DNA of 64,000 bases from Artemia franciscana (taxonomy: Eukaryota; Arthropoda; Branchiopoda; Anostraca; Artemiidae): positions 50,798,162 to 50,862,161 of the forward strand of contig NC_088871.1 of assembly GCF_032884065.1 (NCBI RefSeq), written 5' to 3'. The position numbers and the translations under genes are program-made. Positions 5,539 to 64,000 of the stretch are shown here, piece after piece; position 1 is the stretch's first letter; the number at the start of each line of letters is the position of its first letter. The notes beneath the pieces were generated by a model that was not told where the DNA came from, ran no database searches, and worked only from the letters and a program-made list of their open reading frames with translations.

Positions 5539-26649
<21,111 letters not shown>

Positions 26650-35235: not shown

Positions 35236-36049
35236 TTAGGATGATTTTTTAAGTTCTTGTTGTTGGAGTTCTTGTTTGCTGGTGGGCTTTTAAAAAATAC
35301 ACAGAATCTGAAATGAAGGCATGCTCAGGTCAAGATATTATATTTGACAATGCCATTCTGAAAGACAATAAGAATTTAAGCACGCCGCCTGTTGAAGAAG
35401 AAGAGTCGACCCCTTTTGCTGAAACAAAACCAGAAGAGGTAACAGAGTAAGTAAAGGTCAATGACTGTACTCTAGAGCCTGCAACAAAGGAAAAAAAAGA
35501 GAACTGGGAGCTTCTGGACGAAGAACAAATAACCCCACCAGAAAAGAACAGCGTCAAGACAATGCTCCTGTGACCAAACTAGAAGAGAACGCCTGTAAAG
35601 GTGAAAAAAGGTCATCCAATTCTTCAGTAAGCAGTCCAGCAGGAAGTCAGAATGAAGGTTCAGAAAATAAGCACTCTTCCTATAAAGGTCAAAAGAGACA
35701 AACGACAAACCAAAGCGATACTAACTTTGACAATGCCATTCTGATTCATAAACGCATAGACAGTAGAAATGTAACGACATCACCTGTTAAAGAAACCACT
35801 AAGGACGAAGAAAACGAAAGTGACGCAAAACCTTCATCAGCAAAAATTGCAAATAAACTTTTTCTTCAACCATCTAATGCATCGATGGCCTTGATCAGTG
35901 AGCATACCAAGACTCCAGTTAAAAAAGCTTTACATGAGGGGGAAGAAGAATCTATTTCCCATTTGTATGTCCATAAAAAACAAAGAGAGATAAAACTCTA
36001 CAAAAAAAAATTTCAAACGAGACGACGGCCAGTAGAGAGGAAAGACTAA
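35236..36049 (+). CDS. Unrecognised Lys/Glu/Ser-rich ORF with FDNAIL repeats (possible pseudogene)
   Basis: Not recognised. A hydrophobic stretch VLVVGVLVCWWAF, preceded by a stop, leads into KKYTESEMKACSGQDIIFDNAIL and a Glu-rich run. After a TAA at 35448-35450 and a frameshift near 35500, a 159-codon frame (35570-36049) follows, with FDNAILIHKR and TTSPVKETTKDEENES. The blocks FDNAIL...N..T.PV.E occur twice, so the protein has an internal repeat. The inverted copy (63268-64000) keeps frame across the 35500 region, so that frameshift is specific to this copy. The TAA is shared and overlaps GTAAGT, a perfect splice-donor core, so an intron is possible. It could be a membrane-anchored low-complexity protein or a decayed gene. 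Confidence 0.45.
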
Positions 36050-36150
36050 AACAACGTGGATATTTCGCTTGTATCCAAACATGGCGTCCTCAGCACAAGA
36101 TAAAAAAAACTAATCTAAAAACAAATAAAACCACCACCAATAATAATAAA

Positions 36151-36306
36151 TACAATTGTCGCTACTTATCCACGTAGGGAAAAGAAGCTATTCGAGTTAC
36201 TTCAATGAGAACATCAAAGCAACTCAAAGCAACATCAAAGCAATGTTCTCATTGAAGTAACTCGAATAGCTTCTTCTCCCTACGTGGATAAGTAGCGACA
36301 ATTGTA
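36151..36306. repeat. Near-perfect 64-bp-arm hairpin
   Basis: 36151-36214 is complementary to 36243-36306 with one mismatch; the loop is 28 bases built from CAACATCAAAG-like units. The flanks do not show an obvious target duplication. The same hairpin exists at 63022-63170. Confidence 0.92.
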
Positions 36307-36689
36307 TTCTATTTCTGTTAACTTCTATTTCTGGTAACTTCTATTTCTGTTAAAGTTTTTTGTTAAATTTAGAATAAAGGACGATGAGTAGACAGCTAAA
36401 CCATAAACATAGCACTTTATTCAGAATTTAATATTCTATCTAAATCTAGCAGTCATTATCTCTAGAGAAAAAATTCTTGAGATTTAGATACTTCTGGATT
36501 TTCTTATTCTGGAATTTAAAAAACCTACTTGTGGGATAGCTTATGGCTTACTAAAAATATATTGTCTTGGCAAGTTTTTTTTTTTAAGATTGATTTTGAG
36601 AAAAGATTGTTGAACAAATCGGAGAATAATTACATCTGAACCAACGAATGTGGGTACACAGTAGCCGTTAGCCATCTGATTTTCATTCT

Positions 36690-36966
36690 GAAGTTGTGGG
36701 CTTAACTTTACTATTGAACATCTATTTTTGGGCTGTGGTGCTAGAAAAGCACAGTTTTGTTCAAAGATATCGGCATTGGTACGTTGAGATTGAAAACTTA
36801 TTTTCAAACATTCCTATCCTTAAAAAAAGCTATCGTTTAAATCTGAGAAAGGTTCTGGATTACATGTATAAAGGAATATTCTCAAACGTGACTGCAGAAT
36901 GCTTGTTCAGGACTCTCGATAACACAAAAATGGATAAAGCAAACTCTTTGGCAACAATTTCAGTAG
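36690..36966 (+). pseudogene. Unrecognised conserved ORF fragment (NIPILKKSYRLNLRK)
   Basis: The frame reads IENLFSNIPILKKSYRLNLR, then DYMYKGIFSNVTAECLFRTL and KMDKANSLATISVV. The inverted copy (62337-62570, minus) keeps the same residues with one change (R to C). I do not recognise the family. The frame is cut at 36966 by an insertion that C lacks, and then runs into insert sequence. Confidence 0.4.
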
Positions 36967-37535
36967 TCAAACAGTTCGTGGTAACAAACTGTAGTAAGGA
37001 ACGACCCGGCTCAATAGTAACCAAAACTCTAAAAAATGAGATTTTGATATCAATAGCTACATCAAAAGAATCGCATTTTAATTCTAATTTTAAATATATA
37101 AGTTTCATCAAGTTTAGTCTTACCCATCAAAAGTTACGAGCCTGAGAAAATTTGCATTATTTAAGAAAATAGGAGGAAACACCCCCTAAAAGTCGTAGAA
37201 CCTTAACAAAAATGACACCATCAGATTCAGCGTATCAGAGAACCCTGCTGTAGAAGTTTCAAGCTCCTATCTATAAAAATGTGGAATTTTGTATTTTTTG
37301 CCAGAAGAAATGGAATATGAAATGGGTTGTCCCCTCCGCAATCCCTCGCTCTTTACGCTAAAGTTTGACTCTTTGCCACAATTCTACTTTTTAAAACAAT
37401 TAAAAACTTTAGCGCAAAGAGCGAGGGATTGCGGAGGGGACAACATATTTCATATACGGAGTAATTTCTGTTCGTTTTAAGTTTTAATGTCGCTCCTTAC
37501 TTTCAGCTAAAAAAATTAGTTATTTTTTATTTAAT
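36967..37535. mobile_element. Insertion of about 570 bp absent from copy C
   Basis: Left flank TTTCAGTA and right flank ATCTATTAGTATCTACC are adjacent at about 62355-62370 in the inverted copy. The insert starts near TCAAACAGTTCGTGGTAACA (a short hairpin) and ends in an arm (AGCGAGGGATTGCGGAGGGG...TACTTTCAGCTAAAAAAATT) identical in type to the MITE at 38970. Non-coding, probably non-autonomous. Confidence 0.75.
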
Positions 37536-37744
37536 ATCTATTAGTATCTACCAGTAGAAAAGCACATTGAGAAATAAATAGTTCATCTTGATTGTAGATT
37601 CATCTTCTCCTGTCATGAATAGCGAGATGATGAAATCGTTGTAATGTATCAACGCTTCAAAGACTTATTAAGAAGCAGTGATGATTGTCTCCAGAGCCTC
37701 AGTTTTATGCTACACCTAATACTATCTTATATATAAAAATAAGT

Positions 37745-37748
<4 letters not shown>

Positions 37749-37787
<39 letters not shown>
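37749..37787. repeat. (TG)n microsatellite in H4
   Basis: About 19 TG units at the site where H1 has (GGAT)n. Confidence 0.9.
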
Positions 37788-37788
<1 letters not shown>

Positions 37789-37791
37789 GAG

Positions 37792-37892
37792 TGACGTCAT
37801 GTTTGTGTGTCGATTGACGTCATGTTTGTCGACTGACTTCATTATAAGGATTGAGCTGTATGCGTCATGAAGTTGTTTGTCGACTGACGTCA
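37792..37892. promoter_or_regulatory. Three TGACGTCA palindromes at the H4 5' end
   Basis: Perfect octamers at 37792-37799, 37815-37822 and 37885-37892, with an imperfect TGACTTCA near 37833. Spacing differs from H1-H3, but the motif is kept in all four copies. Confidence 0.45.
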
Positions 37893-37914
37893 TGTTTGTC
37901 AACTGATGAAATTA

Positions 37915-38210
37915 CATACCGGGACGCAAATGACGACCGGGACACAGGGAATATAAATGACGACCGGGAACCTCAAAGAGAAATTACAGACTGGGACACC
38001 CGGACACAAATCATGACCGGGACACAGGGAATATAAATAACGACCGGGACATAGGGACACAACTATAACGGGGACGCCGGGGGCACAGGCGGGATATATA
38101 AATGACGACCGGGACACTCAAAGAGAAATTACAAACTGGGATACCGGGACACAAATGACGACCGGGACACAGGGAATATAAATGACGACCGGGACACAGG
38201 GACACATCAT
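37915..38210. repeat. CCGGGACA minisatellite in H4
   Basis: The longest array of this unit in the window: GACCGGGACACAGGGAATAT alternating with GACCGGGACACTCAAAGAG-type variants. Confidence 0.8.
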
Positions 38211-38365
38211 TAAAATAATGAGGTATCGATCTGAATACGGATTGTTTTTCCCATGGACAATTATATGTTGCATGTTCAAGAGTCATTAAACCTGACAATC
38301 TATTTATATGCACAGACAATGGGACAGCAAAGAATGTTGTATATTCACATGTTTTACGTAGTTAA
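38210..38365 (+). pseudogene. Helitron helicase C-terminal remnant in H4
   Basis: Reads LYVACSRVIKPDNLF and AKNVVYSHVLRS. It shares the TGA stop with H1 and H3 but not their one-base deletion (TTTTTCCC kept), so it branched off earlier. The KAQGQSLE block is mostly gone. Confidence 0.75.
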
Positions 38366-38366
38366 A

Positions 38367-38409
<43 letters not shown>

Positions 38410-38568
38410 ATCTCTATTCACAGGTGGGACACAGGGACACAACTACAATGGCGCGTAACTAAAATGGCACGTAACGACTTACGCGCGCGGAGGGGCTTGG
38501 AGGGGGGGGGGCGAAGCGCCCCACCAACTAGGTGTTGGGGTGGCGCGAAGTGCCAACCCAACAGCTAG

Positions 38569-38672
38569 TTTACTATACTTGTAATGGCGCGCGGGGGGGC
38601 TTGGAGGGGGGGGGGCGAAGCACCCCACCAACTAGCTGTTGGGGTGGCGCGAAGCGCCACCCCAACAGCTAG
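38569..38672 (+). other. Second Helitron tail carrying 12 bp of flank
   Basis: After the first CTAG end (38565-38568) comes TTTACTATACTT, which is the genomic right flank seen in A and C. Then a second tail begins GTAATGGCGCGC and ends CAGCTAG at 38672, followed by TTTTCTATACTTTTC. Confidence 0.8.
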
Positions 38673-38969
38673 TTTTCTATACTTTTCTAGTTTTTCTTGT
38701 TACAAGTCACTCTTAAAGAAATTCACAACCATTTTATTTTTGGTAAACCAAAAAAAAGACAAGAATCATTTTTGTGATTTTTATAGCTTTATTTTTTGGG
38801 TTAATGAACCAAATATCTGATGATTTTCTCTGATAAACATATCAGTCGATTAACTATTATATTCTCTGCTTATATTAGCATCATTCCAATTATAAGTTCC
38901 TGTCCATTTGTCGAAGAATGCTCAATAGTTTTGAACTGATAAAAATATGGCTGTCCTATGTTTGATTAA

Positions 38970-39262
38970 ATAAAAAAAAAACTAATTTTTTTAGCTGAAA
39001 GTAAGGAGCGGCATTAAAACTTAAAACGAACAGAAATTACTCCGTATATGAAATGGGTTGTCTCCTCCGCAGTCCCACGCTCTTTACGCTAAAGCTTTTA
39101 ATTGTTTTAAAAAGTAGAATTGTGGCAAAGAGTCAAACTTCAGCGTAAAGAGCGAGGGATTGCGGAGGGGACAACCCATTTCATATACGGAGTAATTTCT
39201 GTTCGTTTTAAGTTTTAATACCGCTCCTTACTTTCAGCTAAAAAAATTAGTTTTTTTTTTAT
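38970..39262. mobile_element. MITE with long terminal inverted repeats (copy B)
   Basis: The left arm AACTAATTTTTTTAGCTGAA, AGTAAGGAGCGGCATTAAAA, ...TCCGTATATGAAATGGGTTG is complementary to the right arm ending CTTTCAGCTAAAAAAATTAG. Arms of about 130 bp flank a short centre. It has no coding capacity. A related arm lies at 37310-37540. Confidence 0.85.
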
Positions 39263-39599
39263 TTAATTTCTGAACGTTTTTGAATTAATGCATGTTTGGT
39301 TTTGGCTCTCTGCACATAAATTATTAAAATGAAACTTGTATATTAATTCTTTTTTTGGCTAAATGGCTTTCTCTTAGTTTTGATCAGACGATTTTGAGAA
39401 ATAAGGGGTGGAGAAGGAGGCCTAGTTGCCCTCCAATTTTTCGGTTACTTAAAAAGGCAACTAGAACTTTTAATTTTTAATGAACGTTTAAGTAAAAAAT
39501 ACACGTAAATAACTAAAAATAACTAAAATAACGTTACTAAAAATAACGTTTTTAGTAAAAAATACACGTAACCTAAGAATTAACTTACGTAACAAACTT

Positions 39600-39905
39600 T
39601 CATAACCTTATTTTTTTTATTATGTATACAAGGGGGTTGGTACTCTCGTTAATACCTCGCTCTTTGCACTAAATCGTAAGTTTTGTCCCAATTCTTTAAG
39701 AATGACCCCTGAATCAGAAAGGCCGTAGAATAAATAGTTGAAATTACTAAAAATACTTTAGCATAAAGAGCAAGGTATTTATCTCCTCCTAAATACCTCG
39801 CTCTTTATGCTAAAGTATTTTTAGAACCCCTCATATGCGTAATTATCTCTGTTCGTTTTAAGTTTCAATGCTACTTCTTCCTTTCATTTGAAAAAACGTT
39901 TTCAT
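39600..39905. repeat. Related fold-back repeat
   Basis: AATACCTCGCTCTTTATGCTAAAG (39792 onward) and its complement (CTTTAGCATAAAGAGCAAGGTATT, about 39755 onward) form a hairpin. The outer sequence CTGTTCGTTTTAAGTTTCAATGC resembles the MITE arm at 38970. Probably an older member of the same family. Up to 40346 the block is B-specific repeat DNA without genes. Confidence 0.65.
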
Positions 39906-41071
39906 GTTTATTTTTCATTGTTTTCTTATAGTAATGCTAGAGAACCCTGCGCCCTTTTCATTGAATTTTTCTTCCCCCATAACAGATTCCTCCAAGGAAA
40001 GATCCTCCAACATAGCCCCCTCTCCTCAGCCCCACCCCCAAAAAAAATAAAATCCCCCTGAAAACGTCTGTACACTTCCCAATAACCATTACTATATGTA
40101 AACACTGGTCAAAGTTTGTAACTTGCAGCCCCTCCCGCAGGGATTGTGGGGGAGTAAGTCATCCCCAAAGACATAGTTATTATGGTTTTCGACTATGCCG
40201 AACAAAATGGCTATCTCAAAATTTTGATCCGTTGACTTTGGGAAAAAATGAGCGTGGGAGGGGGCCTAGATGCCCTCCAATTTTTTTGGTCACTTAAAAA
40301 GGGCACTAGAACTTTTCATTTCCGTTAGAATGAGCCCTCTTGCGACATTATTGAAAAATTGAGAGCTAGGACTAATTAGACTAAAACCAAGACAGACAGT
40401 TTCTGTGAGATATAAAGCTGGCTTTACCCCCCCACCTAATGATGATATTTTATCATCCTAGGGCAAAACTAAAGTTGATAGACATACATTAAAAGAAATT
40501 CAAATCGGCTTCTTCTTTGGCAAAAAGCATTTGGACTCATCCTTTGGGGTCCTTGTGGCTTTGAAGTTGGCTGATGCTCCTCTATGGTATTGATTTTTAT
40601 ACTTCCAAAAGGGAAACAAAACTACTTTGGCTATTTTCAATGGGATAAACTGAGGGCTATCAGTTCTCTGGACTATTTAAAGGCGACTAGAAATATTTTC
40701 AGCTTTTTTTTTTATCTCACTCCAAACTCAAAACCTCAGCTTAGCCCCTCCTTGCACGTGCCAAGTCTCTAAGTCAAGTTCATTTTTTGAAATGTATCTT
40801 CCTGTTGCACATTATTGGTACATATAGGATTTTTGAATTGGATATCAAATATTGGTTTTGGATAAGAACCATGAAATCTTGAACTTTCGTGTGCTTCCTG
40901 TAATACTTTTTCGCACCCGAATTCCCCAGACTCCTGAATTTAAAAGTTCGGCAGAATACAAACACTGTTAGAATTTGGGAAAGAAAGGATTAATGGGAAC
41001 CAGTTGGCGTGACTATTGTATAGATTTTCATTGAATTTATCTGAATTAATCCGTATAAGTTAGCATTTGAA

Positions 41072-41161
41072 ATGGGAATAGATACAGCAAGATTTTCGGG
41101 AGACATTGATGGAGATCTTCTTTGTTCTATTTGCACATTTGTTTTGGAAGACCCTGTTCAG
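41072..41161 (+). CDS. RNF41-like exon 1, copy B
   Basis: An intact 30-codon exon with ATG at 41072 and donor CAG|GT at 41161. It differs from copy A by E14G (GGA) and silent CTT-CTT Leu codons; both changes are shared with copy C. Exon 2 follows at 51212, but the remainder is beyond the gap, so expression as a full protein cannot be judged. Confidence 0.85.
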
Positions 41162-41464
41162 GTTTGTAGGTTATTCGACCATCTAACAGGCTACTTATGT
41201 AGCAAAGGCTGTTTTAATTTTTTTTTAATATGGCAAACGAACTAATAGAACTTGAAGTTTTAGTCTGATTTTCCTTACTTTTGACTTGAATTTTGCTGGG
41301 TTGTTGGCCAGTTGTAAAGGAAACATAATAATTTGAAATAGCCTAGGTGTATGGTATTAGAATCTCTTTAGATTTTGATTTTGAATTAGCCACCACACAA
41401 GGAGACATGTTAAGAAAACAATTCCTACTTCATAATATACAGAATAATCCTAGTTAGTCTAATA

Positions 41465-42110
41465 TATTTTGGGTAAAATTCTAGTTAATTGACTTCTTGC
41501 TATCTTGGAAAGGGTTTAGGTTAGGAAAATGAAACTTTCAGGGAGGGGTCTACAAGCTAAAGTATGTCCTGGGAAGGTATTTTAAAGTACCCACCTCCAC
41601 TCCTTCTCCCTCTAGAGGGCCCTTAAATTTGTCTACATGACAGGTCTATACCTATTTCAATTTTGACAAAACAACATTTTACCTTAATTTTCAGTTACTA
41701 GTTGCTTTTTTTATGCCTTTAGTTCTGAAAATGCAATTCATGTTATTTGAGAAGAATTTTGAGCCATAGGCTATCAATGTTTTTTTTTTTTCAACATTTA
41801 GGAAAGGTAATTGCATATCTTTAAAACCTAATAAAATTGAATTGAGTAAAGTCATGAAGCTGAAAACAATTTTGTTGTACTTCAATTAAGTGGAAGATCC
41901 ATTTTGTAAGGTTCCACTTTTATAACACACATATTTTTAAAGGTCATCAAAGGTCAGGGCCCTCTAGAGGGAGGAGTGGAGGTAATTGCTTCAAAATACC
42001 TTCCTGGGACATACTTTAGTCTGTAGATTCATCCCTGAAAGTTTCATTTTCCTAATATAAACCCTTTCTGAGATAGCAAGAATTCAACTAACTAGAATTT
42101 TACCATATTT
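41465..42110. repeat. Fold-back element in intron 1 (copy B)
   Basis: Same arms as at 5930-6545. The B right arm is longer, keeping TCTGTAGATTCATCCCTGAAAG, which A has lost. Confidence 0.7.
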
Positions 42111-43755
42111 TGCAGCAGGACCTTTATCTTTACTTTTTTCCTTGATTTTTATGACAAATTAATGAGTTGTTTAGAACATATATAAACAAAATATATACCT
42201 CCAATCCCCTTATGTGGTAATATATAAATACCCTGAATTACATTCTGAATTATAACCTTTATTTGCATACCCCACCCCTAAGTATATCCAAATCTGGGAA
42301 TACACTTACACTTTGTAGGGGTAAAGCTCATTTGTCATGCAAATGAAGGTTATATTTGGATTCAGAATTAAATTTTGGGCTTGTATTTGCACATGAGGGG
42401 GTAGGGTATAGCCTATACTCTGTTAAAATGTAGGTTCAAACAAATTCATGAATCTCTTAGAAAAACTAGATAAACAAGGAAAGAAGTGAAGATAAAGGTT
42501 CTCCTGCTGCAAATATATTAGTTAAGATTATAATGCATATTATGAAGTAAGAATTATCTTCTTAACATGTATCTCTATAGAGTGATACTGGTTGTACAAT
42601 ACTGTTTACCCTTTAAGGGTATCAAACATAGCCCTAGTAACAAGACCTCCTATGCTATTTTTTTATAGACTATCAGGCTACTAAACCAGTTACTCATTAC
42701 CTGCTAAAAGGTAGGAAATATTTCAATAAATGACCTAAAAATAAAGGTAGCATTCCAATTCATACTTCATTTATATTCTTTCCAATTGTTTTGGTATTAA
42801 TTCAATTTTAAGCCCCCTATGGACACTAAAAGATGATACCCTTTTTTCTTATTTCAGATATGGCTTATATAGCCTACCTCTTTTGGCATCACTTTTGTTT
42901 AGACTAGTTTCCCTGTAACTAAATTTAGGTTAAAATTTTAGATAGACTACTTAAATCCTACTAGCTACTTCATTTTGTGAATCTCTTAGGCTTGCTCTCT
43001 GCTGTCTGAACCTTGTCCTTCAAAGGGTTCTATCAGTATAACTAGAGGTTGGTGTATTCAGCTGTGGTATATTATGAGTGTCTCTCCTTTGTACACTGAA
43101 TTAACCTAATTAAGATAAACATTTCAAAGAATTTTGGAATTATTGTACATTTTCCTGGTTTGATTATAAAACTTTGGGTTCATTATTTATTTCAGTCATT
43201 AATTTCTTATTGTACTTCTTTGTGGGTGTCAACCTTTTCTTTGTCTCTGGTGTTGCTCTCTGAGATACATGGCAAAGCAAGGAGCCTTATCCTTGAAACA
43301 AATACTTCTGCAAATAAGCTGTTGCTTGATTAGAAGTCTTTTTGTATTCTCATGTGTGTATTTTGTTTTCTTCAACACCATTTTGGCACTCCTTTGGCCC
43401 TCAGAATTAGTCCATCTTTGTCTGATCATTTTAATTGTCATATTTGTAAATATGACAACATTCAACTTCCATTAGTAACTTAAATCTTTCTAAATCTACT
43501 TAGCTAATTTAAGCTACTAGATCTTCTACTTAAATGAAGCATGAAACAAGTGTTTTTAGTTTTAAAACTTTGCTCAATCCCACTATATTATGCTTCAAAG
43601 ATCTTCAAAATATATTTCCTAAATTTAGGAAAATCCTTTGACATGGCCTAAAATTCCACTCCAGTTCTAGTATCAAAAATTATAGAGAGGTATATGGACT
43701 ATCATCAAGTCCTTTCATCTCTTTGACTACTTCATCAAAAGCTAGCTGCTGGAAG
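42111..43755. other. Intron 1 of copy B without recognisable features
   Basis: Matches 6545-8260 of copy A, including the second inverted repeat at about 42220-42400. No gene seen. Confidence 0.45.
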
Positions 43756-44910
43756 CACTCAATTATATACAATAATAAACTATTATTGATGATGGGAAGT
43801 ATGGGTACCTGAGCTACCTGTCCCCAGCAGTTTAAGGCCACTAGGCTGGCCAGTACAAAAATGGCTCTTCTTACTCTCCTGCTCTCTTCTGCCCAATCAA
43901 AATCTAAACATAAATCATATCCTTTTAAATTGATATCTTCATGCTTTAATATACACTATAACAATATTACTCTTCTTTAATATATTAATATATGCCTTAA
44001 ATATCTTGCAATCAATATCTCAGGAGAGGTTAGCATTCAGGATAGCTTTATAAATATTTAGAATCCTAGCCAAGGAGCAGAAACACTTTAGAGAAATAGT
44101 CTCCTCACTCTGAGCCTGACAATCAAATAATACATGCTGAATTGTTTCATCTGTTGAGAAGCAGATTTGGCATAAAGGGGAATGATGTAGTTTCCAATTA
44201 AATAGCAAGCTGTTTAGAAATAAGGCACCTGATCTCATTGGTAATATAGCACAGTATTCAATCTAGTATGAAATGGGGATAAAATTAATTTACTGTGATT
44301 AACATTGGATCTTTGCCTGATAATTTACTGCTAGAGAATAAGCCATATCACTATATTTGATGCCTTTATGACTTGGAACATGTTGGAAATACATCTAATT
44401 GCCTTTAGTCATAAGATAAAGAAGCTGTCTTCTAATATTATTTAAATCCTTGTCATTGCCAATTCTATTAATATTTTAAAGCAATAGTAATAATGATTTG
44501 GAGTCAGAGAGACAGTGTATATTTTCAAATTCTATATTATAATTTATAATATTTATCCAAGGCCAGGCAAATGGCACATAATTCAGTAGACAAAATAGAA
44601 GATCCTAACGGGAAAGTAAATGTTCAAGTTCAGGGATGGGATACATTCTCCTGCTCCAGCTCTCTCCCTCTGGACAAATCCATCTGTATTTATTTTTCTC
44701 CAATTAGGGTATGCCTTTGAGATCTGTTCAGCCAAAATAGTCCAGATCTCATAGTTAGGCATCAGGTTTTATCAATTGATATAAGTTCTACTTGACAACT
44801 TGGTGGACTCATTTCCCATTGAGGGGACTCAGTAAAGGGATATGCATAGTGTATCTATAGTGTATGCATAGTGTATCTTGCATAGTGTAGGCTGGCGTAG
44901 AAATATTAGG
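43755..44910 (-). pseudogene. LINE-a RNase H and C-terminal part (copy B)
   Basis: Same broken frames as 8260-9370: LCQICFSTDETIQHVLFDC knuckle and RNase H blocks. It is the same insertion as in A, inherited by duplication. Confidence 0.75.
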
Positions 44911-45153
44911 AGAAGCTGCCACTCCTTCAGATCAAGATTTAGGATTAGTTCTAGGATTGTGGAGGGCTGGACTTGCTATAACAACATTAAATAATAATTT
45001 ATTTATAAACCACAAAATATATTAAACTGTGGAGTAAACACACACAAAAAAAGAAAAAACAAGATAAAAATAACAACATAAATAACATACAACATGAATA
45101 AATTACCTCAATTCAAAAAATGGCCAAAGAGGGTCAAAAACACCAATCATTTG

Positions 45154-46644
45154 CTAAGTTTTAAGAGATATATCTTCAGATAAATGTTTCAGTCGCAAGG
45201 GCGCATACATGATGTCAAATTTAGAAACAACTGCATGATTCTGATGCCACCAAGGCAGACACAGCAAATAATTGCAATACTTAAAATATTCTGAGCGTAA
45301 TTTCTTTGTATCCTTTTTGCAAAGGAGGAAAGCAAAACCAGAAAGATAAAAAACAGCAGGGGCACAAAAACTAGAATAAAGACAGCATAGTCCTTTTTGG
45401 TTATACCAGCCATGATTTGGTGAAATTTTTCCGTAACCAACCCGCATACTTTTCAGCACGCTGGACATAATAGCAGAGCAAGTAGACAAAATTGACATGG
45501 AAAAAGAGAGACCCAACCATTTACTACCTGCTGACCATGGTATAGTTGAAGAACCCAAGCAAAGAAGTGATGCTGGTAGAGGACTCCCAAAACACAAAAA
45601 CTCACATTTGGAGGCATTAACTGAAAGGCCTACTATGGATAGTGTGGCTGAAAGCTGGTCAAAGTTGGTAATTAGACTATGTTTTGTCCGGCTAAGAAGC
45701 AGAACATCATCAGCATATGTAATGTGACTAATGCCTAAATTATCATTGTAAAAAATTGACAATTGAAGCTGTTGGAGACACAAAGCTAAAACCCATTTAA
45801 ATATATTCGGGGATAACACGGCTCCTTGCATAACACCCTTTTTAACAGGAATATACTCCCCTACAGTACGATTCCACTTCACCTCAACTGAAGAATTAGC
45901 ATACCCATACTTAAGCACAGAAACAATAGAAAGGCTGCTGCTAGGCTGCTAGAGAAAACAAAGCATTTGAATGAATTACATTGTCAAAAGTACTAGATAT
46001 GTCAACAGTCAAACAATACAGGGGACTTTTTTGATAACAGTTTGTTTCATTAGCCAACCCACAATATGGTGAGCTTGAACGCAGCCCATACCTTTTCTAA
46101 AACCAGGATGAAAGGGCGTAATATTGCACTTGAAGTTATGGCCAGTAGCAGTACTTATTCAAATAGCTTACTAACAGGACACAGTGATAGGACGGTAATT
46201 AGAGCAAACACTGGGGTCCTTACCCCTCTTGACTATGGGAGATATACAACCGGACAAAAAGCTATCTGGCACAATGGACTGTGCCAAACACATCTGAAAC
46301 AATAACTGCAAATGCTTCAGCAGTTCAGGACAATCATAAGCAAAAAAGTTGAAACAAAGACCATCACTATTGAGAGACTCAGACTTATTCAATTGGTTAA
46401 GAGCTCGGAGTATAACACCAGATTCCACCAATAACACTTGAGATTGGTTGATATGAATTGGGAGGATTGAGTTGACAAGCTTTGTAAAATGATTTTGGAG
46501 ATTAATATTAAATGAGAGCAAAATATTTTTATAATGAGAAATGAAGTCACATAGCCAAAGAGACAAATTAATTGGAGGTGAATGCTTTACACTGTTTATA
46601 ACACGATCCCAGGATTTCTTGTCACAAGGACCATAGGGACACAA
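45154..46644 (-). pseudogene. LINE-b reverse transcriptase (copy B)
   Basis: Frames 46644-46171 (finger region, ending NYRPITVSC with the usual RPI that A has changed to RHI) and 45918-45154 (GVMQGAVLSP, HITYADDVLLLSRT). Catalytic YADD is kept. Stops between the two pieces, near 45950-46170, make it non-functional. No endonuclease domain is visible. Confidence 0.85.
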
Positions 46645-46679
46645 AGCTAAACAGAGTTTGAGTATTCATTTATCAGCAT

Positions 46680-51354: not shown

Positions 51355-51392
51355 GTATTTATTTAATTCTATATATTGCAGATATATACAAA

Positions 51393-53321: not shown

Positions 53322-53599
53322 ACTGCAGTTCCACAGCAGGGGATGATTTTGGACTAAGCTGTAATGTTTCTCATCTGGACAGACTATTGTCACCAGATGA
53401 GAGTGTAAATAGTTTGTTTGTTTCAGTTGATGATGGTGTTTCATGTATTAATGAGTTGTTTTCAAGTAGTTCCTATTTTTTCAGCGCTAATTCAACAATT
53501 TCTTCTGGTGCTTCATCAACTGAGCCTCTTTCTGCTGGTGTATTTTTTGCTAATAAATCATCTCTGCACAGTGCAACCAAAAGTGCAACTCGTCATGCA

Positions 53600-54590
53600 A
53601 ATGATATTGGAAAATTCAGGATTCTTAGTGCGAACGCTGACGGCCTCTTCAACAAGGTTCCAGAGCTCCATCTCCGCCTACCAAAAGAAATAGTTGATAT
53701 TGCAGCCATATCTGAGATATGCCCCAAAAATGTGAAACAGCCTCTTACAGCCCAAGCACTTGAAATCAGTGAATACCGACTCATATCTAACATTGAGTCC
53801 AATGCCTGCAGGAGAGGTGTTTGAATATATGTAAAAAGCAGTTTCAAGGTAAGCACTTTGATTCCTTCTTCCCATTGCTGTGTTGGGGTTGAGAATGTCT
53901 GGGTTAGACTACAGTGTGGTAATTCTACAATGGCGGTCGGAGTGGTTTATCGTAGTCCTAATACTCCCTCTTGCCTTGAATCTGAACAGTATCTTGCTAA
54001 TATCATTTCTGATATTATCAAAGACTCTTGCAACCAACATGTGGTGATTCTTGGAGACTTCTATCTTCCCAATTATGATTGGGTTGATGGTTCTGGTTTT
54101 ACAGCCAAAAAATAGGAATCTCCATTTCTTACTTGTCTGTCTGAACATTTGCTGTTCCAAACTGTTGACCAACCTACACGGTACAGAGATGGTCAAGCAT
54201 CCAACATACTGGACCAACTGGACTAGTTATTCCTAATAATCCAGATTTGTGGACTAAAAATAAATTTCTTGCTCCTATTGGTAACAGTGATCATGCTGCT
54301 ATCCTCACAGAATTGCGCTTGTTTACTACTCAACCTCTTCCTAAACAACACAAAGTTATTGATTACAAGCGTATCTCTGAAAGACTTGCTGACTTTGATT
54401 GGGATACCATATTCACTTCAGATATTGAAGAATATTGGCAGAAATTCAAAGCTGTATTGCTAGTTTTTGAAAAAGCTCACACTAGAACATTTTGGAGGAG
54501 ACAGGCAAAAACACTACCCTTCATGACTTGTCTAACTAGCAAACTACTGAATAGGAAGAATCGAACCTGGAAAAACTTTAAAAAAAAATA
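53600..54590 (+). pseudogene. CR1-like LINE ORF2, AP endonuclease domain
   Basis: GKFRILSANADGLFNKVPEL starts an APE-type fold. Later come VGVVYRSPN, VVILGDFYLPNYDW (GDF motif) and LAPIGNSDHAAI with the catalytic SDH near 54280. Stops: TGA 53822-53824 and TAG 54113-54115. A frameshift near 54225 precedes the SDH part. It nicks target DNA in active relatives; here it is dead. Confidence 0.8.
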
Positions 54591-54780
54591 AAACAGCTGC
54601 AAACTATCAAAAGTATCAAAAGGCACGGAATGAGGCCACCAATTCTATCAAACAACTGAAGAAGAGTCATGAAGAAAGGTTAGCTGAAAATATAAAAAAT
54701 AATCCCAAGCTGTTTTGGCAGTATGCTTCTGTTAAATGTGGAAATAAGCACTCTGTCCCTGATTTTTTGTCAACAAAGCA

Positions 54781-55977
54781 GTTATTGAGCATCTTGATCA
54801 GAATCATCTTCTTAACAGCTCTCAACATGGTTTCTGATGCAACAGATCAGTTGACACTAATCTGCTTGAGTCATATAAATATATTACAAAACTACTGGAG
54901 TTGGGAATCCCTGTTGCCATGATCCTTCTTGATTTTTCAAAAGCATTCAACAAAGTGTGTCATAGGAGACTTGAGCTTAAGCTACAATCTATTGGTTTGG
55001 AGGAATGGATTCTGGATTTCTTGAGGAATTGTGTTCAGAATGTAAGACTGTTTGATGCAGATGGCAATCCTATTCTCTCCTCCTCTCAGAATGTTATCAG
55101 TGGGGTTCCACAGGGTAGTGTTCTTGGCCCTACCATGTTCAATATTTTCATAAACGATGCTCCTCTAGCGCTTAAAAGCAGGATGACGTTATATGCTGAT
55201 GATTCCAAGGTATTTGGCCCAGCTAGCATTCTTGAAGATACTTCCCAACTTCAAAATGACCTTGAACTCCTTAGCGTGTGGGCGAAATCTTGGCTACTCA
55301 CTTTCAATGTGTCAAAATGTCATGTTTTACACTTTGGGCACAAGAATATCAATACAACTTACTCTCTTTACAGTCAGCTCCTTTCCCCAGTGTTGGAAGA
55401 ACGTGACCTAGAAGTAATTGTTGACAATCATCTTAAATTTAGCACTCATGCAAAGATGGCAGCAGCATCAGCTAGCTCATCACTAGGGCTCATAAAAAGA
55501 ACAATTTCCTCTCGTTCTCCTAAAATTCTGAGCCTTTTGTATAAAGGACTTGTTTGGCCAAGGCTTGAGACAGGCATGGTCCTTGCATCCCCCTTTTTCA
55601 AAAAAGATTTAAAAATTCTTGAAGATGTCTAGAGAAGAGCCACTAAGATGGTGAGTGGACTGCATGAGCTCCCTTACCCTACAAGGCTATACAAGCTGAA
55701 ACTCCCAACTCTGGTTTATAGAAGAAGATGGTGTGATGCCATTCTGGTTCATAAACTTATTATTTCAAAGGCAGTTCCTGATCTTCTTCCTCTGGCGTCT
55801 CAGGACTCTTGTACAGGGGGACATAACTTGAAGTTATTCAGGCATTTCTCCTCAAAGCGGCAACACGCCCATTTTCTTACCAACCGTGTTGCCAACCTCT
55901 GGAACAAATTACTGCCAGATACCATTGCTGCCCAAACCACAGACAGCTTTAAGAACCATCTTGACAACGAATGGTAA
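54781..55977 (+). pseudogene. CR1-like LINE ORF2, reverse transcriptase
   Basis: One frame reads VIEHLDQNHLLNSSQHGF, a TGA at 54835-54837, then AMILLDFSKAFNKVCHRR (first Asp), SGVPQGSVLGPTMFNIF and LYADDSKVF (YADD at 55192-55203). The thumb and end are VQRRATKM-like and SFKNHLDN. A TAG at 55630-55632 stands where EDVQRRA is usual (CAG to TAG). The segment between VPDFLSTK and VIEHLDQ is deleted, removing the RT finger blocks. Stop at 55975-55977. Confidence 0.88.
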
Positions 55978-56129
55978 AAAAAGAATGGAAGTATAACTGG
56001 GAAGCACTCAAATCAGCAACATCAAACCACTAGTCAAGTGTATGTATTCAACTATGTGTCATGTATTATCAACTCTGGAGTTTCTACAAGGAAAAATCCT
56101 TAGATTGCTCCAAGCTGCAATTTAAGGTA

Positions 56130-57800
56130 ATCATTTGGTTTTTATGCAGATGATTTGATTATTTAGAAGTCTGGAAGGGATAATGGCCTTCTTTGAAGTC
56201 TTATTCAACAGTATATTAAAATAGTCCAGTTATTCTCTTTAGCTTTTGGCTTCCCAATCTCAATCAGTAAAATTAAAGCCATTATATTTAATAATGGTGG
56301 TACAGACCTTCCTAATCCACTCAAGATCTTCTCAAGGGACATCCCATATTGAAATTCAGTGAAATTACTTGGTTTATTTATGGATTCTAAAATGCAGTGG
56401 CACGAACATATTAATCCTTTGAAATCTTTGATTATTCAGAGACTTTGTATTCTAAAGAGACTTTCTGGAAGTAAGTGGGGATGTCATCCTAAACTTACAT
56501 TGGATTTCTACAAATTAAATATTGGTTCAAATCTAGAATATGGGATCCAATTTTTTTCAGTTTGTCTCCCATCCTTCTTCAAAATCCTTGAATCTTCACA
56601 AAACCCTGCCATTCAAATAGCTTTGGGTGTGCATAAGTATACTCCTCTTTCTAAGTTAAAAATATTGTCTTGATTGATATCCTTAAGTGACAGAGCATAT
56701 GGTCTAAGGATTAAATATTTCTCACAAATCCAGGCTTATGGAACCAAACATGGTTTACATGCACATACCTTTGCTGGGAAGTCAGCTTGTCCCAATGCCC
56801 ATTCATCATGGAATCAATTTCAACTGGAGGTCCCAAATTGGAATCAATACTCTCCTTCTACATATACCTTTACTGTGTCCCCTCCATGGGAAATGAGTCC
56901 ACCAGGTTGTCAAGTAGAACTTATCTCAATTGATAAAACCTGGTGCCTAACTACAAGATCTGGACTATTTTGGCTGAACAGATCTCAAAGGCATACCCTA
57001 ATTGAAGAAAAATAAATACAGATGGATTTGTCCAGAGGGAGAGAGCTGGAGCAGGAGAATGTATCCCATCCCTAAACTTGAACATCTATTCTCCTCTCCT
57101 GTTAGGATCTTCTATTTTGTCTACTGAAGTATGTGCCATTTGCCTGGCCTTGGATGCAGTTATAAATTATAATATAGAATCTGAAAATATACTCTGTCTC
57201 TCTGACTCCAAATCAGTATTACTATAGCTTTAAAATATTAATAGAATTGGCAATGACAAGGATTTAAATAATATTAGAAGACAGCTTCTTTATCTTATGA
57301 CTAAAGGCAATGAGATTTATTTCCAACATGTTCCAAGTCATAAAGGCATCAAATATAATGATATGGCATATTCTCTAGCAGTAAAGGTTTTCATGTTAAT
57401 TCCTAGTCCTTCCTCTGACCTCCATTCAGGAGATATTATCAGGCAAAGATCCAATGTTAATCACAGTAAATTAATTTTATCCCCATTTCATACTAGATTA
57501 AATACTGTGCTATATTACCAATGAGATCAGGTGCCATATTTCTAAACAGCTTGTTATTTAATTGGAAGCTACATCATTCCCCTTTATGCCAAATCTGCTT
57601 CTCAACAGATGAAACAATTCAGCATGTATTCTTTGATTGTCAGGCTCAGAGTGAGGAGACTATTTCTCTAAAGTGTTTCTGCTCCTTGGCTAGGATTCCA
57701 AATATTTATACAGCTATCCTGAATTCTAACCTCTCCTGAGATATTGATCACAAGATATTTAAGGCATCTATTAATATATTAAAGAAGAGAAATATTGTTT
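56130..57800 (+). pseudogene. LINE-a reverse transcriptase end, RNase H and C-terminal knuckle (copy C)
   Basis: It resumes with GFYADDLII (YADD at 56143-56154) exactly in the frame left at 52088. Then LGLFMDSKMQWHEHINPL and SNLEYGIQFF (RT thumb), RNase H blocks TDGFVQRERAGAG, STEVCAICLALDA, LCLSDSKSVL and QHVPSHKGIKYNDMA, and the LCQICFSTDETIQHVFFDC knuckle (57521-57739). Stops and frameshifts are scattered. This is the only copy in the window that still has the LINE-a RT, since A and B have LINE-b there. Confidence 0.8.
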
Positions 57801-59700
57801 AGTGTTTATTAAAGCATGAAGATATCAATTTAAAAGGATATGATTTAGGTTTAGATTTTGATTGGGCAGAACAGAGCAGGAGAGAGTAAGAAGAGCCATT
57901 TTTGTACTGGCCAGCCTAGTGGACTTAAACTGCTGGGGACAGGTAGCTCAGGTACCCATACTTCCCATAATCAATAATAGTGTATTATTGGATATAATAG
58001 TGTGTACTCATTGATTGCTGACTGGAGGAGAATAGTGCTTCCAGCAGCTAGCTTTTCTGATGAAGTAGTCAAAGAGGTGAAAGGACTTGATGATAGTCCA
58101 TATACCTCTCTATAATTTTTGTTACTAGAACTGGAGTGGAATTTTAGGCCATGTCAAAGGATTTTTCTAAATTTAGGAAATATATTTTGAAGATCTTTGA
58201 AGCATAATATAGTGGGATTGAGCAAAGTTTTAAAGCTAAAAACACTTTTTTCATGCTTCATTTAAGTAGAAGATCTAGTAGCTTAAATTAGCAAAGTAGA
58301 TTTAGAAAGATTTAAGTTACTAATGGAAGTTGAATGTTGTCAGATTTACAAATATGACAATTAAAATGATCAGGCAAAGATGGACTAATTCTGAGGGCCA
58401 AAGGAGTCCCACAATGGGGTTGAAGAAAACAAAATACACGCATGAGAATACAAAAAGACTTCTAATCAAGCAACAGCTTATTTGCAGAAGTATTTGTTTC
58501 AAGGATAAGGCTCCTTGCTTTGCCATGTATCTCAGAGAGCAACACCAGAGACAAAGAAAAGGTTGACACCCACAAAGAAGTACAATAAGAAATTAATGAC
58601 TGAAATAAATAATGAACCCAAAGTTTTATAATCAAACCAGGAAAATGTACAATAATTCCAAAATTCTTTGAAATGTTTATCTTAATTAGGTTAATTCAGT
58701 GTACAAAGGAGAGACACTCATAATATACCACAGCTGAATATACCAACCTCTAGTTATACTGATAGAACCCTTTGAAGGACAGGGTTCAGACAGCAGAGAG
58801 CAAGCCTGTGAAATTCACAAAATGAAGTAGCTAGTAGGATTTAAGTAGTCTATCTAGAATTTTAACCTAAATTTAGTTACAGGGAAACTAGTCTAAACAA
58901 AAGTGATGCCAAAAGAGGTAGGCTATATAAGCCATATCTGAAATAAGAAAAAAGGGTATCATCTTTTAGTGTCCATAGGGGGCTTAAAATTGAATTAATA
59001 CCAAAACAATTGGAAAGAATATAAATGAAGTATGAATTGGAGTGCTACCTTTATTTTTAGGTCATTTATTACAATATTTCCTAGCTTTTAGCAGGTAATG
59101 AGTAACTGGTTTAGTAGCCTGATGGTCTATCAAAAAATAGCACAGGAGGTTTTGTTACTAGGGCTATTTTTGATACCCTTAAAGGGTAAACAGTATTGTA
59201 CAACCAGTATCACTCTATAGAGACATATGTTAAGAAGATAATTCTTACTTCATAATATGCATTATAATCTTAGCTAATAGGCTATATTTGCAGCAGGAGA
59301 ACCTTTATCTTCACTTCTTTCCATGTTTATCTAGTTTTTCTAAGAGATTCATGAATTTGTTAGAACCTACATTTTAACAGAGTATAGGCTATACTCTATC
59401 CCCTCATGTGCAAATACAAGCCCAAAGTTTAATTCTGAATCCAAATATAACTTTCATATGCATGACAAATGAGCTTTACCCCTACAAAGTGTAAGTGTAT
59501 TCCCAGATTTGGATATACTTAGGGGTGGGGGTAAAGTTCATTTGTTATGCAAATAAAGGTTATAATTAGATTCAGAATGTAATTCAAGGTAAGTATATAT
59601 TACCACATAAGGGGATTGGAGGTATATATTTTGTTTATATATATGTTCTAAACAACTCATTAATTTGTCATAAAAATCAAGGGGAAAAGTAAAGATAAAG
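57801..59700. other. Intron 1 of copy C without a gene
   Basis: Matches B 42120-43760 reversed. It includes the second inverted repeat at about 59380-59600. No coding region seen. Confidence 0.5.
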
Positions 59701-59709
59701 GTCCTGCTG

Positions 59710-60355
59710 CAAAATATGGTAAAATTCTAGTTAGTTGAATTCTTCCTATATCAGAAAGGGTTTATACTAGTAAAATGAAACTTTCAGGGATGAATCTACA
59801 GACTAAAGTATGTCCCCGGAAGGTATTTTGAAGCAATTAACTCTACTCCTCCCTCTAGAGGGCCCTGACCTTTGATGACCTTTAAATTTATGAGTGTTAT
59901 AAAAGTGAAACCTTACAAAATAGATCTTCCACTTAATTGAAGTACAACAAAATTGTTTTCAGCTTCATAACTTTACTCAATTCATTTTATTAGGTTTTAA
60001 AGATATACAATTACCTTTCCTAAATGTTGAAAAAAAAAACATTGATAGCCTATGGCTCAAAATTTTTCTCAAATAGCCTACCATGAATTGCATTTTCAGA
60101 ACCATAGGCATAGAAGAAGCAACTAGTAACTGAAAATTAAGGTAAAATGTTGTTTCGTCAAAATTGAAATAGGTAGGCTATAGGCCTGTCATGTAGGCAC
60201 ATTTAAGGGCCCTCTAGAGGGAGAAGGAGTGGAGGTGGGTACTTTAAAATACCTTCCCAGGACATACTTTAGCTTGTAGATCCGTCCCTGAAAGTTTCAT
60301 TTTCCTAACCTAAACCCTTTCCAAGATAGCAAGAAGTCAATTAACTAGAATTTTA
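59710..60355. repeat. Fold-back element in intron 1 (copy C)
   Basis: Same arms as in A (5930-6545) and B (41465-42110), reversed. Confidence 0.7.
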
Positions 60356-60674
60356 CCCAAAATATATTAGACTAACTAGGATTATTCTGTATAGTATGAA
60401 GTAGGAATTGTTTTCTTAACATGTCTCCTTGTGTGGTGGCTAATTCAAAATCAAAATCTAAACAGATTCTAATACCATACACCTAGGCTATTTCAAATTA
60501 TTATGTTTCCTTTACAACTGGCCAACAACCCAGCAAAATTCAAGTCAAAAGTAAGGAAAATCAGACTAAAACTTCAAGTTCTATTAGTTCGTTTGTCATA
60601 TTAAAAAAAAAAAAAAAATTAAAACAGCCTTTGCTACATAAGTTGCCTGTTAGATGGTCGAATAACCTACAAAC

Positions 60675-60764
60675 CTGAACAGGGTCTTCTAAAACAAATG
60701 TGCAAATAGAACAAAGAAGATCTCCATCAATGTCTCCCGAAAATCTTGCTGTATCTATTCCCAT
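60675..60764 (-). CDS. RNF41-like exon 1, copy C
   Basis: Minus-strand ATG at 60764-60762, MGIDTARFSGDIDGDLLC, donor after CAG at 60675. It is intact and shares Gly14 and both CTT Leu codons with copy B. Going downstream it reaches LINE-a and then the gap. No exon 2 is seen on this arm, so the copy is partial as assembled. Confidence 0.85.
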
Positions 60765-62160
60765 TTCAAATGCTAACTTATACGGATTAATTCAGATAAA
60801 TTCAATGAAAGTCTATACAATAGTCACGCCAACTGGTTCCCATTAATCATTTCTTTCCCGAATTTTAACAGTGTTTGAATTCTGCCGAACTTTTAAATTC
60901 AGGAGTTTTGGGGAATTCGGGTGCGCAAAAGTATTACAGTAAGCACACGAAAGTTCAAGATTTCATGGTTCTTATCCAAAACCAATAGTTTATATCCAAT
61001 TCGAAAATCCTATACGTAAAAATAATATGCAATAGGAAGAAACATTGCAAAAAATGAACTTGACTTAGAGACTTGGCACGTGCAAGCAGGGGCTAAGCTG
61101 AGGTTTTGAGTTTGGAGTGAGATAAAAAAAATAAGCTGAAAATATTTCTAGTCGCCTTTAAATAGTCTAGAGAACTGATAGCCCTCAGTTTATCCCTTTG
61201 AAAATAGCCAAAGTAGTTTTCTTTCCCTTTTGGAAGTATAAAAATCAATACCATGGAGGAGCATCAGCCAACTTCAAAGCCACAAGGACCCCAAAGGATG
61301 AGTCCAAACGCTTTTTGCCAAAGAAGAAGCCGATTTGGATTACTCTTAATGTATGCCTATCAACTTTAGTTTTGCCCTTGGATGATAAAATATCATCATT
61401 AGGGGGGGGGGGAATAATAAATTTTATACATCTCCAAAAAAGTAAAGCCAGCTTTATATCTCACAGAAACTGTCTGTCTTGGTTTTAGTCTAATTAGTCC
61501 TAGCTCTCAATTTTTCAATCATAACTTGACCTAGTTTTCCTTGTACAAATAAGTTTTCTATGTGTCTGAACGGACCATAAACTTGCTCCAGTTTTGTTTT
61601 CGTGCTCAGCAGGGCTTTTATAGGGTATGGATTCATAAAAAAAATTAAATGCTTTTACAAAGTAGATTCTAGAATGAAAGCCTAGGATTGGAACTTTTAG
61701 CTGATAATAGATTTTGCTGACATTGTTACAAAAAATACAAATGTGTTTTAAATATTACTGAAATGAACTCTCATAATCTATTACCTTAGGTTAGTATACA
61801 CATTATCTTTGATACTTTTTTTAGTCCGAAAACGTAGCTTTTTTGTGTTTATTTTAAGAAAGATGACTAAAATAAATCATATAAGGGCAATAATCAAACA
61901 TAGGACAACCATATTTTTATTAATTCAGAACTATTGAGCATTCTTCGACAAATGGACAGGAACTTATAATTGGTATGATGCTAATATAAGCAGAGAATAT
62001 AATAGTGAATCGACTGATCACTGAAAATCATCAGATATTTGGTTCATTAACCCAAAAAATAAAGCTATGAAAATCACAAAAATGATTCTTGTCTTTTTTC
62101 TTGGTTTACCAAAAACAAAATGGTTGTGAATTTCTTTAAGAGTGACTTACAACAAGAAAA
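60765..62160. other. Upstream region of copy C
   Basis: Matches 4191-5538 of A reversed, including the homopolymer (G11 at 61402-61412 against C15 in A). No gene seen. Confidence 0.5.
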
Positions 62161-62200
62161 ACTAGAAAAGTATAGTAAATTAAGTGTAGCATAAAACTGA
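62160..62200. other. Empty site for Helitron H4 (copy C)
   Basis: Reversed, the sequence reads GCTACACTTAATTTACTATACTTTTC without interruption in the middle, where B has 948 bp of Helitron between GCTACACCTAATACTA and TTTTCTATACTTTTC. Confidence 0.85.
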
Positions 62201-62336
62201 GGGCCTGGAGACAATCATCACTGCTTCTTAATAAGTCTCTGAAGCGTTGATACATGACAACGATTTCATCATCTCGCTATTCATGACAGGAGAAGATGAA
62301 TCTACACACAACTATTTATTTCTCAATTTGACTTTT

Positions 62337-62570
62337 CTACTGGTAGATACTAATAGATACTACTGAAATTGTTGCCAAAGAGTTTGCTTTATCCATTTTC
62401 GTGTTATCGAGAGTCCTGAACAAGCATTCTGCAGTCACGTTTGAGAATATTCCTTTATACATGTAATCCAGAACCTTTCTCAGATTTAAACAATAGCTTT
62501 TTTTAAGGATAGGAATGTTTGAAAATAAGTTTTCAATCGTCACCGTACCAATGCCGATATCTTTGAACAA
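62337..62570 (-). pseudogene. Unrecognised conserved ORF fragment (copy C)
   Basis: Equivalent of 36690-36966: ENLFSNIPILKKSYCLNLRK through KMDKANSLATISVV, then a stop soon after. Since this copy lacks the B insertion, the reading ends naturally at ISIYQ, and the fragment is probably a decayed piece of a larger gene. Confidence 0.4.
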
Positions 62571-63021
62571 AACTGTGCTTTTCTAGCACCACAGCCCAAA
62601 AATAGATGTTCAATAGTAAAGTTAAGCCCACAACTTCAGAATGAAAATCAGATGGCTAACGGCTACTGTGTACCCACATTCGTCGGTTCAGATGTAATTA
62701 TTATCCGATTTGTTCAACAATCTTTTCTCAAAATCAATCTTAAAAAAAAAACTTGCCAATACAATATATTTTTAGTAAGCCATAAGCTATCCCACAAGTA
62801 GGTTTTTCAAATTCCAGAATAAGAAAATCCAGAATTATCTAAATCTCAAGAATTCTTTCTGTAGAGATAATGATTGCTACATTTAGATAGAATATTAAAT
62901 TCTGAATAAAGTGCTATGTTTGTTTTTTAGCTGTCTACTCATGGTCCCTTATTCTAAATTTAACAAAAACTTTAACAGAAATAGGAGTTACCAGAAATAG
63001 AAGTTAACAGAAATAGAATAC

Positions 63022-63170
63022 AATTGTCACTACTTATCCACGTAGGGAGAAGAAGCTATTTGAGTTACTTCAATGAGAACATTGCTTTGATGTTGCTTTG
63101 ATGTTCTCATTGAAGTAATTCGAATAGCTTCTTTTCCCTACGTGGATTAGTAGCGACAATTGTATTTATT
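63022..63170. repeat. 64-bp-arm hairpin, copy C
   Basis: Same hairpin as 36151-36306, with a few arm mismatches and an 18-base loop. It lacks one 10-base loop unit (CAACTCAAAG type). Confidence 0.9.
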
Positions 63171-63267
63171 ATTATTGGTGGTGGTTTTATTTGTTTTTAG
63201 ATTAGTTTTCTTTTTATCTTGTGCTGAGGACGCCATGTTTGGATACAAGCGAAATATCCACGTTGTT

Positions 63268-64000
63268 TTAGTCTTTCCTCTCTACTAGCCGTTGTCTCGT
63301 TTGAAGTTTTTTTTTGTAGAGTTTTATCTCTCTTTGTTGTTTATTGACATCAAAATGGGAAATAGATTTTTCTTCCCCCTCATGTAAAGCTTTTCTAACT
63401 GGAGTCTTGGTTTGCTCACTGATCAAGGCCATCGATGCATTAGATGGTTGAAGAACAAGTTTATTTGCAATTTTTGCTGATGAAGGTTTTGTGTCACTTT
63501 CTTTTTCTTCGTCCCTAGTGGTTTCTTCAACAGGTGATGTCGTTACATTTCTACTGTGTATGCCTTTATGAATCAGAATGGCATTGTCAAAATTAGCATC
63601 GCTTTGGTTTGTCATTTGTCTCTTCTGACCTTTATAGGAAGAGTGCTTATTTTCCGAACCTTCATTCTGACTTCCTGCTGGACTGCTTACTGATGAATTG
63701 GATGACCTTTTTTCACCTTTACTGGCGTTCTCTTCTAGTTTGGTCACAGGAGTATTGTCTTGACGCTGTTCTTTTCTGGTGGGGTTATTTCTTTTTCTTC
63801 CAGAAACTCCCAGTTCTCTTTTTTTCTTTGTTGTAGGCTCTGGAGTACAGTCATTGACTTTTACTTACTCTGCTGCCTCTTCTAGTTTTGTTTCAGCAAA
63901 AGGGGTCGACTCTTCTTCTTCAACAGGCGACGTGCTTAAATTCTTACTATCTTTCAGAATGGCATTGTCAAATATAATATGTTGTCCTGAGCATGCCTTC
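63268..64000 (-). CDS. Unrecognised FDNAIL-repeat ORF, copy C (cut by window end)
   Basis: The 159-codon frame 63747-63268 matches 35570-36049 with about 20 substitutions. The frame continues upstream without a shift through RELGVSGRKRNNPTRKEQ and PEPTTKKK to a TAA at 63865-63867, then EEAAE and, farther on, FDNAIL near the window edge. Function unknown. It is Lys/Glu/Ser-rich with no domain I recognise. Confidence 0.45.

Follow-up and report, generated by a model that had tools for sequence, protein, structure and literature searches.

Like the human E3 ligase RNF41 (NRDP1), the gene of which A, B and C are copies has a RING encoded jointly by exons 1 and 2, a TRAF-like zinc finger and a C-terminal USP8-interacting domain. 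A, B and C lie in the stretch of the Artemia franciscana genome analyzed here (64,000 nucleotides; NCBI RefSeq assembly GCF_032884065.1, contig NC_088871.1, positions 50,798,162 to 50,862,161, hereafter the window), which genome search placed at C9:50798162-50862161, near the end of scaffold C9 of an assembly of 1.27 Gb and 6468 contigs. The gene is divergent, with 31.8% identity to a human RNF41 fragment over 88 residues. Unlike the human gene, this one exists in many recent copies, and in copy A the part that should link exon 3 to the last exon could not be located. None of the titles listed in a literature search concerned an invertebrate RNF41 expansion, which is not proof of absence in print. 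Two further systems are comparable. Tandem clusters with gene conversion resemble the locus in that its copies lie on the same strand within each contig and show patchy identity; only an unproven inverted join lies outside their usual range. False heterotype duplications, as described in PMC9516828, resemble it in that duplicate copies are parted by a gap on one scaffold, but the divergence here is several times the local allelic-type level, and among the cores compared the nearest relative of copy C lies on a different scaffold. On balance, A, B and C are probably real paralogues of a tandem cluster, and the head-on meeting of B and C a scaffolding error caused by a wrongly oriented 68-kb contig.

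The components of the cluster are listed below in window-relative coordinates (negative to the left of the window). Beyond the window, 100 kb on each side plus the remainder of C9 to its end were read (287.5 kb in total).

4308 to 15517, plus strand: copy A, the part common to B and/or C; the gene runs on to about 26649
5539 to 5628, plus strand: coding exon 1 of A, first half of the RING, open frame, donor GT
15337 to 15479, plus strand: exon 2 of A, second half of the RING
16546 to 16927, plus strand: exon 3 of A, with weak Pfam matches below threshold to TRAF-like zinc fingers and a charged, coiled-coil-like end
26311 to 26649, plus strand: last exon of A, USP8_interact (Pfam, 63.4 bits at a cut-off of 25; PDB RNF41 chains 2ogb, 2gwf, 2fzp)
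35315 to 51392, plus strand: copy B, 5′ half and upstream arm, truncated in intron 2 by the gap
41072 to 41161, plus strand: coding exon 1 of B
51212 to 51354, plus strand: exon 2 of B, followed by 38 bases of intron 2 before the gap
51393 to 51492, no strand: gap of 100 N joining contig 1 (-17036 to 51392) to contig 2 (51493 to 187515, the C9 scaffold end)
56861 to 64000, minus strand: copy C, 5′ part and upstream arm
60675 to 60764, minus strand: coding exon 1 of C, peptide identical to that of B exon 1
-13453 to -13094, plus strand: copy Z, represented by its last exon, which contains an in-frame stop
127263 (exon 1), 104639 (exon 2), 98696 (exon 3) and 90021 (last exon), minus strand: copy D, located by exon searches

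Coding exon 1 comprises 30 codons, is open in A, B and C, and contains the first RING Cys pair in all three; the A peptide is one residue off that of B and C. That the RING lies at the N terminus is corroborated by the frame of B exon 2, which scored above the cut-offs of zf-rbx1, zf-RING_2, zf-C3HC4_2 and zf-C3HC4. The exon encoding USP8_interact has homologues in D and Z, whereas the contigs carrying B and C stop before reaching it. Over exons 1 and 2, A and B differ by three synonymous and two replacement substitutions (synonymous rate, dS, 0.060; replacement rate, dN, 0.011), too few to prove constraint. Judged by its domain content, the gene of which A, B and C are copies is RNF41/NRDP1-like.

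The window contains a single N-run, of exactly 100 N, and one further gap of 100 N (-17136 to -17037) was present in the 287.5-kb region. Contig 1 (68 kb) is therefore bordered by a 100-N gap at both ends. Along C9 the order is Z, A and B, all on the plus strand of contig 1, followed by C and D, both on the minus strand of contig 2, the last contig; several same-strand copies in continuous sequence were thus found on either side of the gap, and the gap itself is the sole inverted junction. Exon searches across the region recovered four exons of A, exons 1 and 2 of B, and exon 1 of C, and no exon in the 83 kb examined of contig 0, which precedes contig 1. The period between A and B is 35.53 kb. 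Genes are broken near the gaps: Z begins at the equivalent of A 17976 and lacks its 5′ half, and B and C lack their 3′ halves, ending at the equivalents of A 15517 and about A 14340. Given its in-frame stop, Z (or a gene uniting C and Z) may be a pseudogene.

B and C are opposed copies flanking the gap, as the sequence-only reading had claimed. Its estimate of about 9 kb plus the arm was too generous, because the match, which is 9.53 kb long in B and 7.14 kb long in C, already includes the upstream arm. Identity was 95.2% over 35315-36967/64000-62359, 95.4% over 40424-43759/61414-58034, 95.8% over 43756-44324/58004-57435 and 94.3% over 44324-44844/57385-56861; the pairing is real and far beyond chance. 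The homology is truncated by the window edge at 64000: the block truly ends at 35297/64018, and collinear blocks reach about 147 kb. The left side of the gap, given as intron 2 in that reading, consists of B exon 2 and the 38 bases of intron 2 that follow it. Self-matches were evaluated from the best 80 of 572 for the window and the best 90 of 628 for the wider region, and the comparison of flanks shows matches above 300 bits.

Divergence was determined over a core corresponding to A 4894-9328, counting substitutions only and leaving out alignment ends. It amounted to 3.80% for A-B (166/4372), 5.01% for A-C (222/4429) and 3.35% for B-C (148/4413). These averages conceal a patchy pattern. Around A 7170-8110, B and C differ by 2.01% and A by 6.6-6.7% from both, compared with 3.7% for B-C elsewhere in the core. 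Likewise, A and B differ at 145/6113 sites over 8248-14367 versus 53/903 just past this interval (Fisher, 1e-7), tract borders having been picked after inspection of the data. When the order of differing sites was permuted, homogeneity was rejected for the lineages of A (p 0.0015) and C (p 0.002), with p 0.64 for that of B. Between A and D, two blocks at the 3′ end diverge by 6.2% and 7.8%, the exon 1 and exon 2 blocks by 11.9% and 11.5%, respectively, and intron 1 by 11.1%, and a sixth gene block, in intron 3, differs at only 8/977 sites (0.8%). The 3.9 kb around exon 3 (A 16434-20341 versus D 98811-94899) are 97.75% identical, with the exon 1 and exon 2 blocks 11-12% apart; this stretch is probably a recent conversion tract.

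Related copies exist elsewhere in the genome; at most about 40 candidates were scored in each genome search, so that all counts are lower bounds. With the B core (2474 bases) as query, seven full-length matches were found among 40 candidates: the three window copies (B itself, A and C), a further three on the minus strand of C21 (24.37-24.48 Mb) and a single one on C17. Searches with exons 2 and 3 added a fourth, D-like C21 copy (24.50 Mb, minus). By these search matches, C21:24347661-24500738 holds another RNF41-like cluster, in which at least four copies are matched on the minus strand; the 3′ half of Z matches four minus-strand places on C21, which may hold more than four copies. In the comparison of seven cores, C pairs with E2, one of the C21 copies (2.26%, support 1.0), and is 3.49% from B; B and E1 differ by 2.98%. 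The sequence-only reading had left the choice between a true inverted duplication, haplotypes and paralogues joined tail to tail. The five partial or full copies on C9, at least four on C21 and one on C17 uphold paralogues; the tail-to-tail orientation has no support from sequence crossing the gap.

We infer that the paralogues were homogenized in patches through gene conversion or unequal exchange, interrupted by LINE (long interspersed nuclear element) insertions, and that contig 1, gapped at both ends, was placed the wrong way round. Flipping it would bring all C9 copies head to tail onto one strand in the order D, C/Z, A, B, and would unite the 5′ half of C (exon 1 and part of intron 1) with the 3′ half of Z (intron 3 to the last exon), exons 2 and 3 lying in the gap. 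Because Z and B sit on the same contig, only Z and C can pair in this way. After the flip, the distance from C exon 1 to A exon 1 would be 31.85 kb plus a hidden 3.6 kb (with A as the model), that is about 35.5 kb, compared with the A-B period of 35.53 kb. For these reasons a misoriented contig was judged likelier than a true inverted junction. Several observations weigh on the other side. No sequence bridges the gap, the flip leaves the 3′ half of B missing, and Hi-C data may underlie the order that the assemblers chose. If E2 serves as the template, about 11.7 kb would be hidden and the spacing would fit more loosely. Between A intron 3 and B intron 1, contig 1 runs collinear with the reverse of contig 2, and the intergenic sequence between A and B is closest to that between D and C in both blocks compared (2.2% and 3.9%; that between Z and A, 4.6-7.3%), which fits allelic or block-duplicated segments. 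A 162-base fragment of the exon 2 query matches the plus strand of C21 (24505541). Finally, the 5′ half of C is 2.3% from E2, yet Z matches the 3′ half of E2 at only 82-93%, depending on the piece; given the mosaic make-up of the cluster (A and D differ by 0.8% in intron 3 but by 11.5% at exon 2), this is a weak counterpoint. C/Z was also considered as the orthologue of E2, and was rejected: a genome-wide search with the 3′ half of Z, the first 992 bases of which are a dispersed repeat with many matches at 86-88%, gave no match of ≥900 bases above 93% other than Z itself, so that the flip was not clinched in this way.

A local measure of allelic-type divergence is provided by scaffold C16. The outer end of contig 2 (173301-187515; C9:50971462-50985676) matches C16:36816687-36830900 in reverse with 78 differences in 14161 (0.55%), and this 14.2-kb match runs precisely to the end of scaffold C9 and, in C16, to a 100-N gap. 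The geometry is that of two contigs with overlapping ends, and C16 likely holds the true continuation of contig 2; a recent duplication that chanced to stop at both contig ends is formally conceivable. Directly over the same gap (36830901), C16:36831001-36838132 is an inverted near-copy of 36817224-36810000 (43/5948, 0.72% over 6 kb), probably representing an inverted haplotype contig, and hence the assembly does contain inverted allelic-type pairs at such gaps. Both values are presumably allelic. The last 5 kb of C9 were devoid of telomere-type repeats (five motifs, three or more head-to-tail units). Around 166870-171190 of contig 2, 4.3 kb have two counterparts of 94-95% identity on C17, close to 17.05 Mb and 17.12 Mb; in the genome search with the 164-174 kb piece of contig 2, the query's own locus was missing from the matches listed.

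How do other explanations of the inverted pairing compare with a misoriented contig? The arrangement may be true as given, with Z, A and B pointing rightward, C and D leftward, and a gap larger than its nominal size hiding the 3′ halves that B and C lack. This possibility, which we hold to be the less probable one, agrees with the scaffold as it stands and with the nearly identical unit position at which B and C break, and the outer end of contig 2 could face the C16 contig end in this way if C9 and C16 were one chromosome. It demands, however, that three half genes find their partners in nominal 100-base gaps (about 23 kb at the window gap if B and C have the length of A), while neither gap-free contig contains an opposed pair of copies, and the C21 copies are one-stranded apart from the 162-base fragment. 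A real inversion would be a large imperfect palindrome, the opposed arms of which exchange sequence by gene conversion; this is unlikely, albeit compatible with the 0.8% versus 11.5% contrast between intron 3 and exon 2 in A-D and with the drop of B-C to 2.0% at A 7170-8110 from 3.7% elsewhere.

Considering the window alone, with B and C 3.35% apart and a gap between them, haplotype contigs had been the favored explanation: contigs 1 and 2 would be two haplotypes of the same region (D = A, C = B), contig 2 having stayed in the scaffold in reverse. PMC9516828 advises suspicion of gaps between duplicate copies and takes such a gap on one scaffold as a mark of false duplication; PMC12376112 remarks on wrongly oriented pseudo-chromosomes and on allelic contigs left by purge tools. 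The collinearity of reversed contig 2 with contig 1 over A intron 3 to B intron 1, the 0.8% between A and D in one intron 3 block, the closeness of both intergenic blocks in exactly this pairing, and the inverted near-identical pair over the C16 gap in the same assembly all speak for it. The explanation was dropped when the 0.55-0.72% level and the A-D divergences became available, and we now consider it improbable: B-C divergence is about six times that of the contig 2/C16 overlap, five of the six A-D gene blocks are 6-12% apart, C is nearest to a C21 copy rather than to B among the seven cores, and for 6 kb of the outer flank of contig 2 (154-160 kb) the scored matches included no other long copy. 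Past 105.7 kb, contig 2 is matched by contig 0 over 6.4 of 81.8 kb, in sequence that looks repetitive, and a control piece of contig 0 (6000 bases) had no full-length second copy among the matches listed. Very improbable, lastly, is a false join between chromosomes, by which contig 2 would belong only in the C16 gap at 36830901, its attachment to C9 being an error perhaps brought about by cluster similarity. The end-to-end match of 187515-173301 with C16 36816687-36830900 would be expected in this case, and contig 0 ends in a repeat, its edge toward contig 1 being without unique sequence; but contigs 1 and 2 share one cluster, so that they plausibly belong together, and a single chromosome may comprise both C9 and C16. 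The end of contig 0 (-19999 to -17138) had 38 other near-full-length matches at 98-99% identity among the 43 matches listed, and is a putative young dispersed repeat.

Further sequence upstream of the genes, within intron 1 and beside the gap is listed next.

35465 to 36049, plus strand: open frame "FDNAIL" in the B arm, without a Pfam family
63268 to 63864, minus strand: open frame "FDNAIL" in the C arm
44862 to 49919, minus strand: stretch of B intron 1 with a minus-strand LINE, common to A 9346-14367 (2.39%)
51493 to 55977, plus strand: LINE composite where contig 2 borders the gap, with a reverse transcriptase at 54838-55632
56081 to 56130, minus strand: 50-base stretch matching B 49891-49940, beyond the LINE region of A and B

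The upstream arm is also present in A, just left of the window (-2918 to -349), and belongs to the repeated unit. Between B and C, its "FDNAIL" frame has accumulated 24 replacement and 5 synonymous differences (dN 0.059, dS 0.045, dN/dS about 1.3) and shows no sign of constraint. The reverse transcriptase of the intron 1 LINE was matched on the A copy (9649-10407). C had no match to the 5-kb LINE region of A and B; in its place are about 0.7 kb, followed by the 50-base intron piece. Judging from a reverse transcriptase motif, these 0.7 kb may represent an older LINE. According to the sequence-only reading, the right side of the gap was intron 1 LINE sequence in reverse; the LINE composite found there has no counterpart in intron 1 of A or B. 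Of the composite, 3 kb recur on C21 at 98.1% and again, in two pieces, at 95.8%. It was considered as a bridge and discarded, since nothing near the window was matched above 200 bits by the upstream flanks of its two C21 copies. No relatives of the LINE reverse transcriptase were confirmed in viral_contigs, and Rfam returned no matches. Within B, 36968-40346 contains insertions with inverted repeats (e.g., 37315-37528/38973-39186, 95%) and lacks about 360 bases common to A and C. Between A and B lies a direct tandem duplication of about 1 kb (31616-32628/32718-33745, 93.4%).

For the assembly, the locus calls for caution: the inverted duplication is probably an artifact of a 100-N join close to the end of the scaffold, which may also split one gene in two, and the near-identical 14-kb overlap suggests that the other end of contig 2 continues on C16. 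Were the palindrome real, conversion between its arms would hold several RNF41-like ligases partly uniform. For the gene family, a recent expansion of RNF41-like ubiquitin ligase genes is documented on three scaffolds of A. franciscana.

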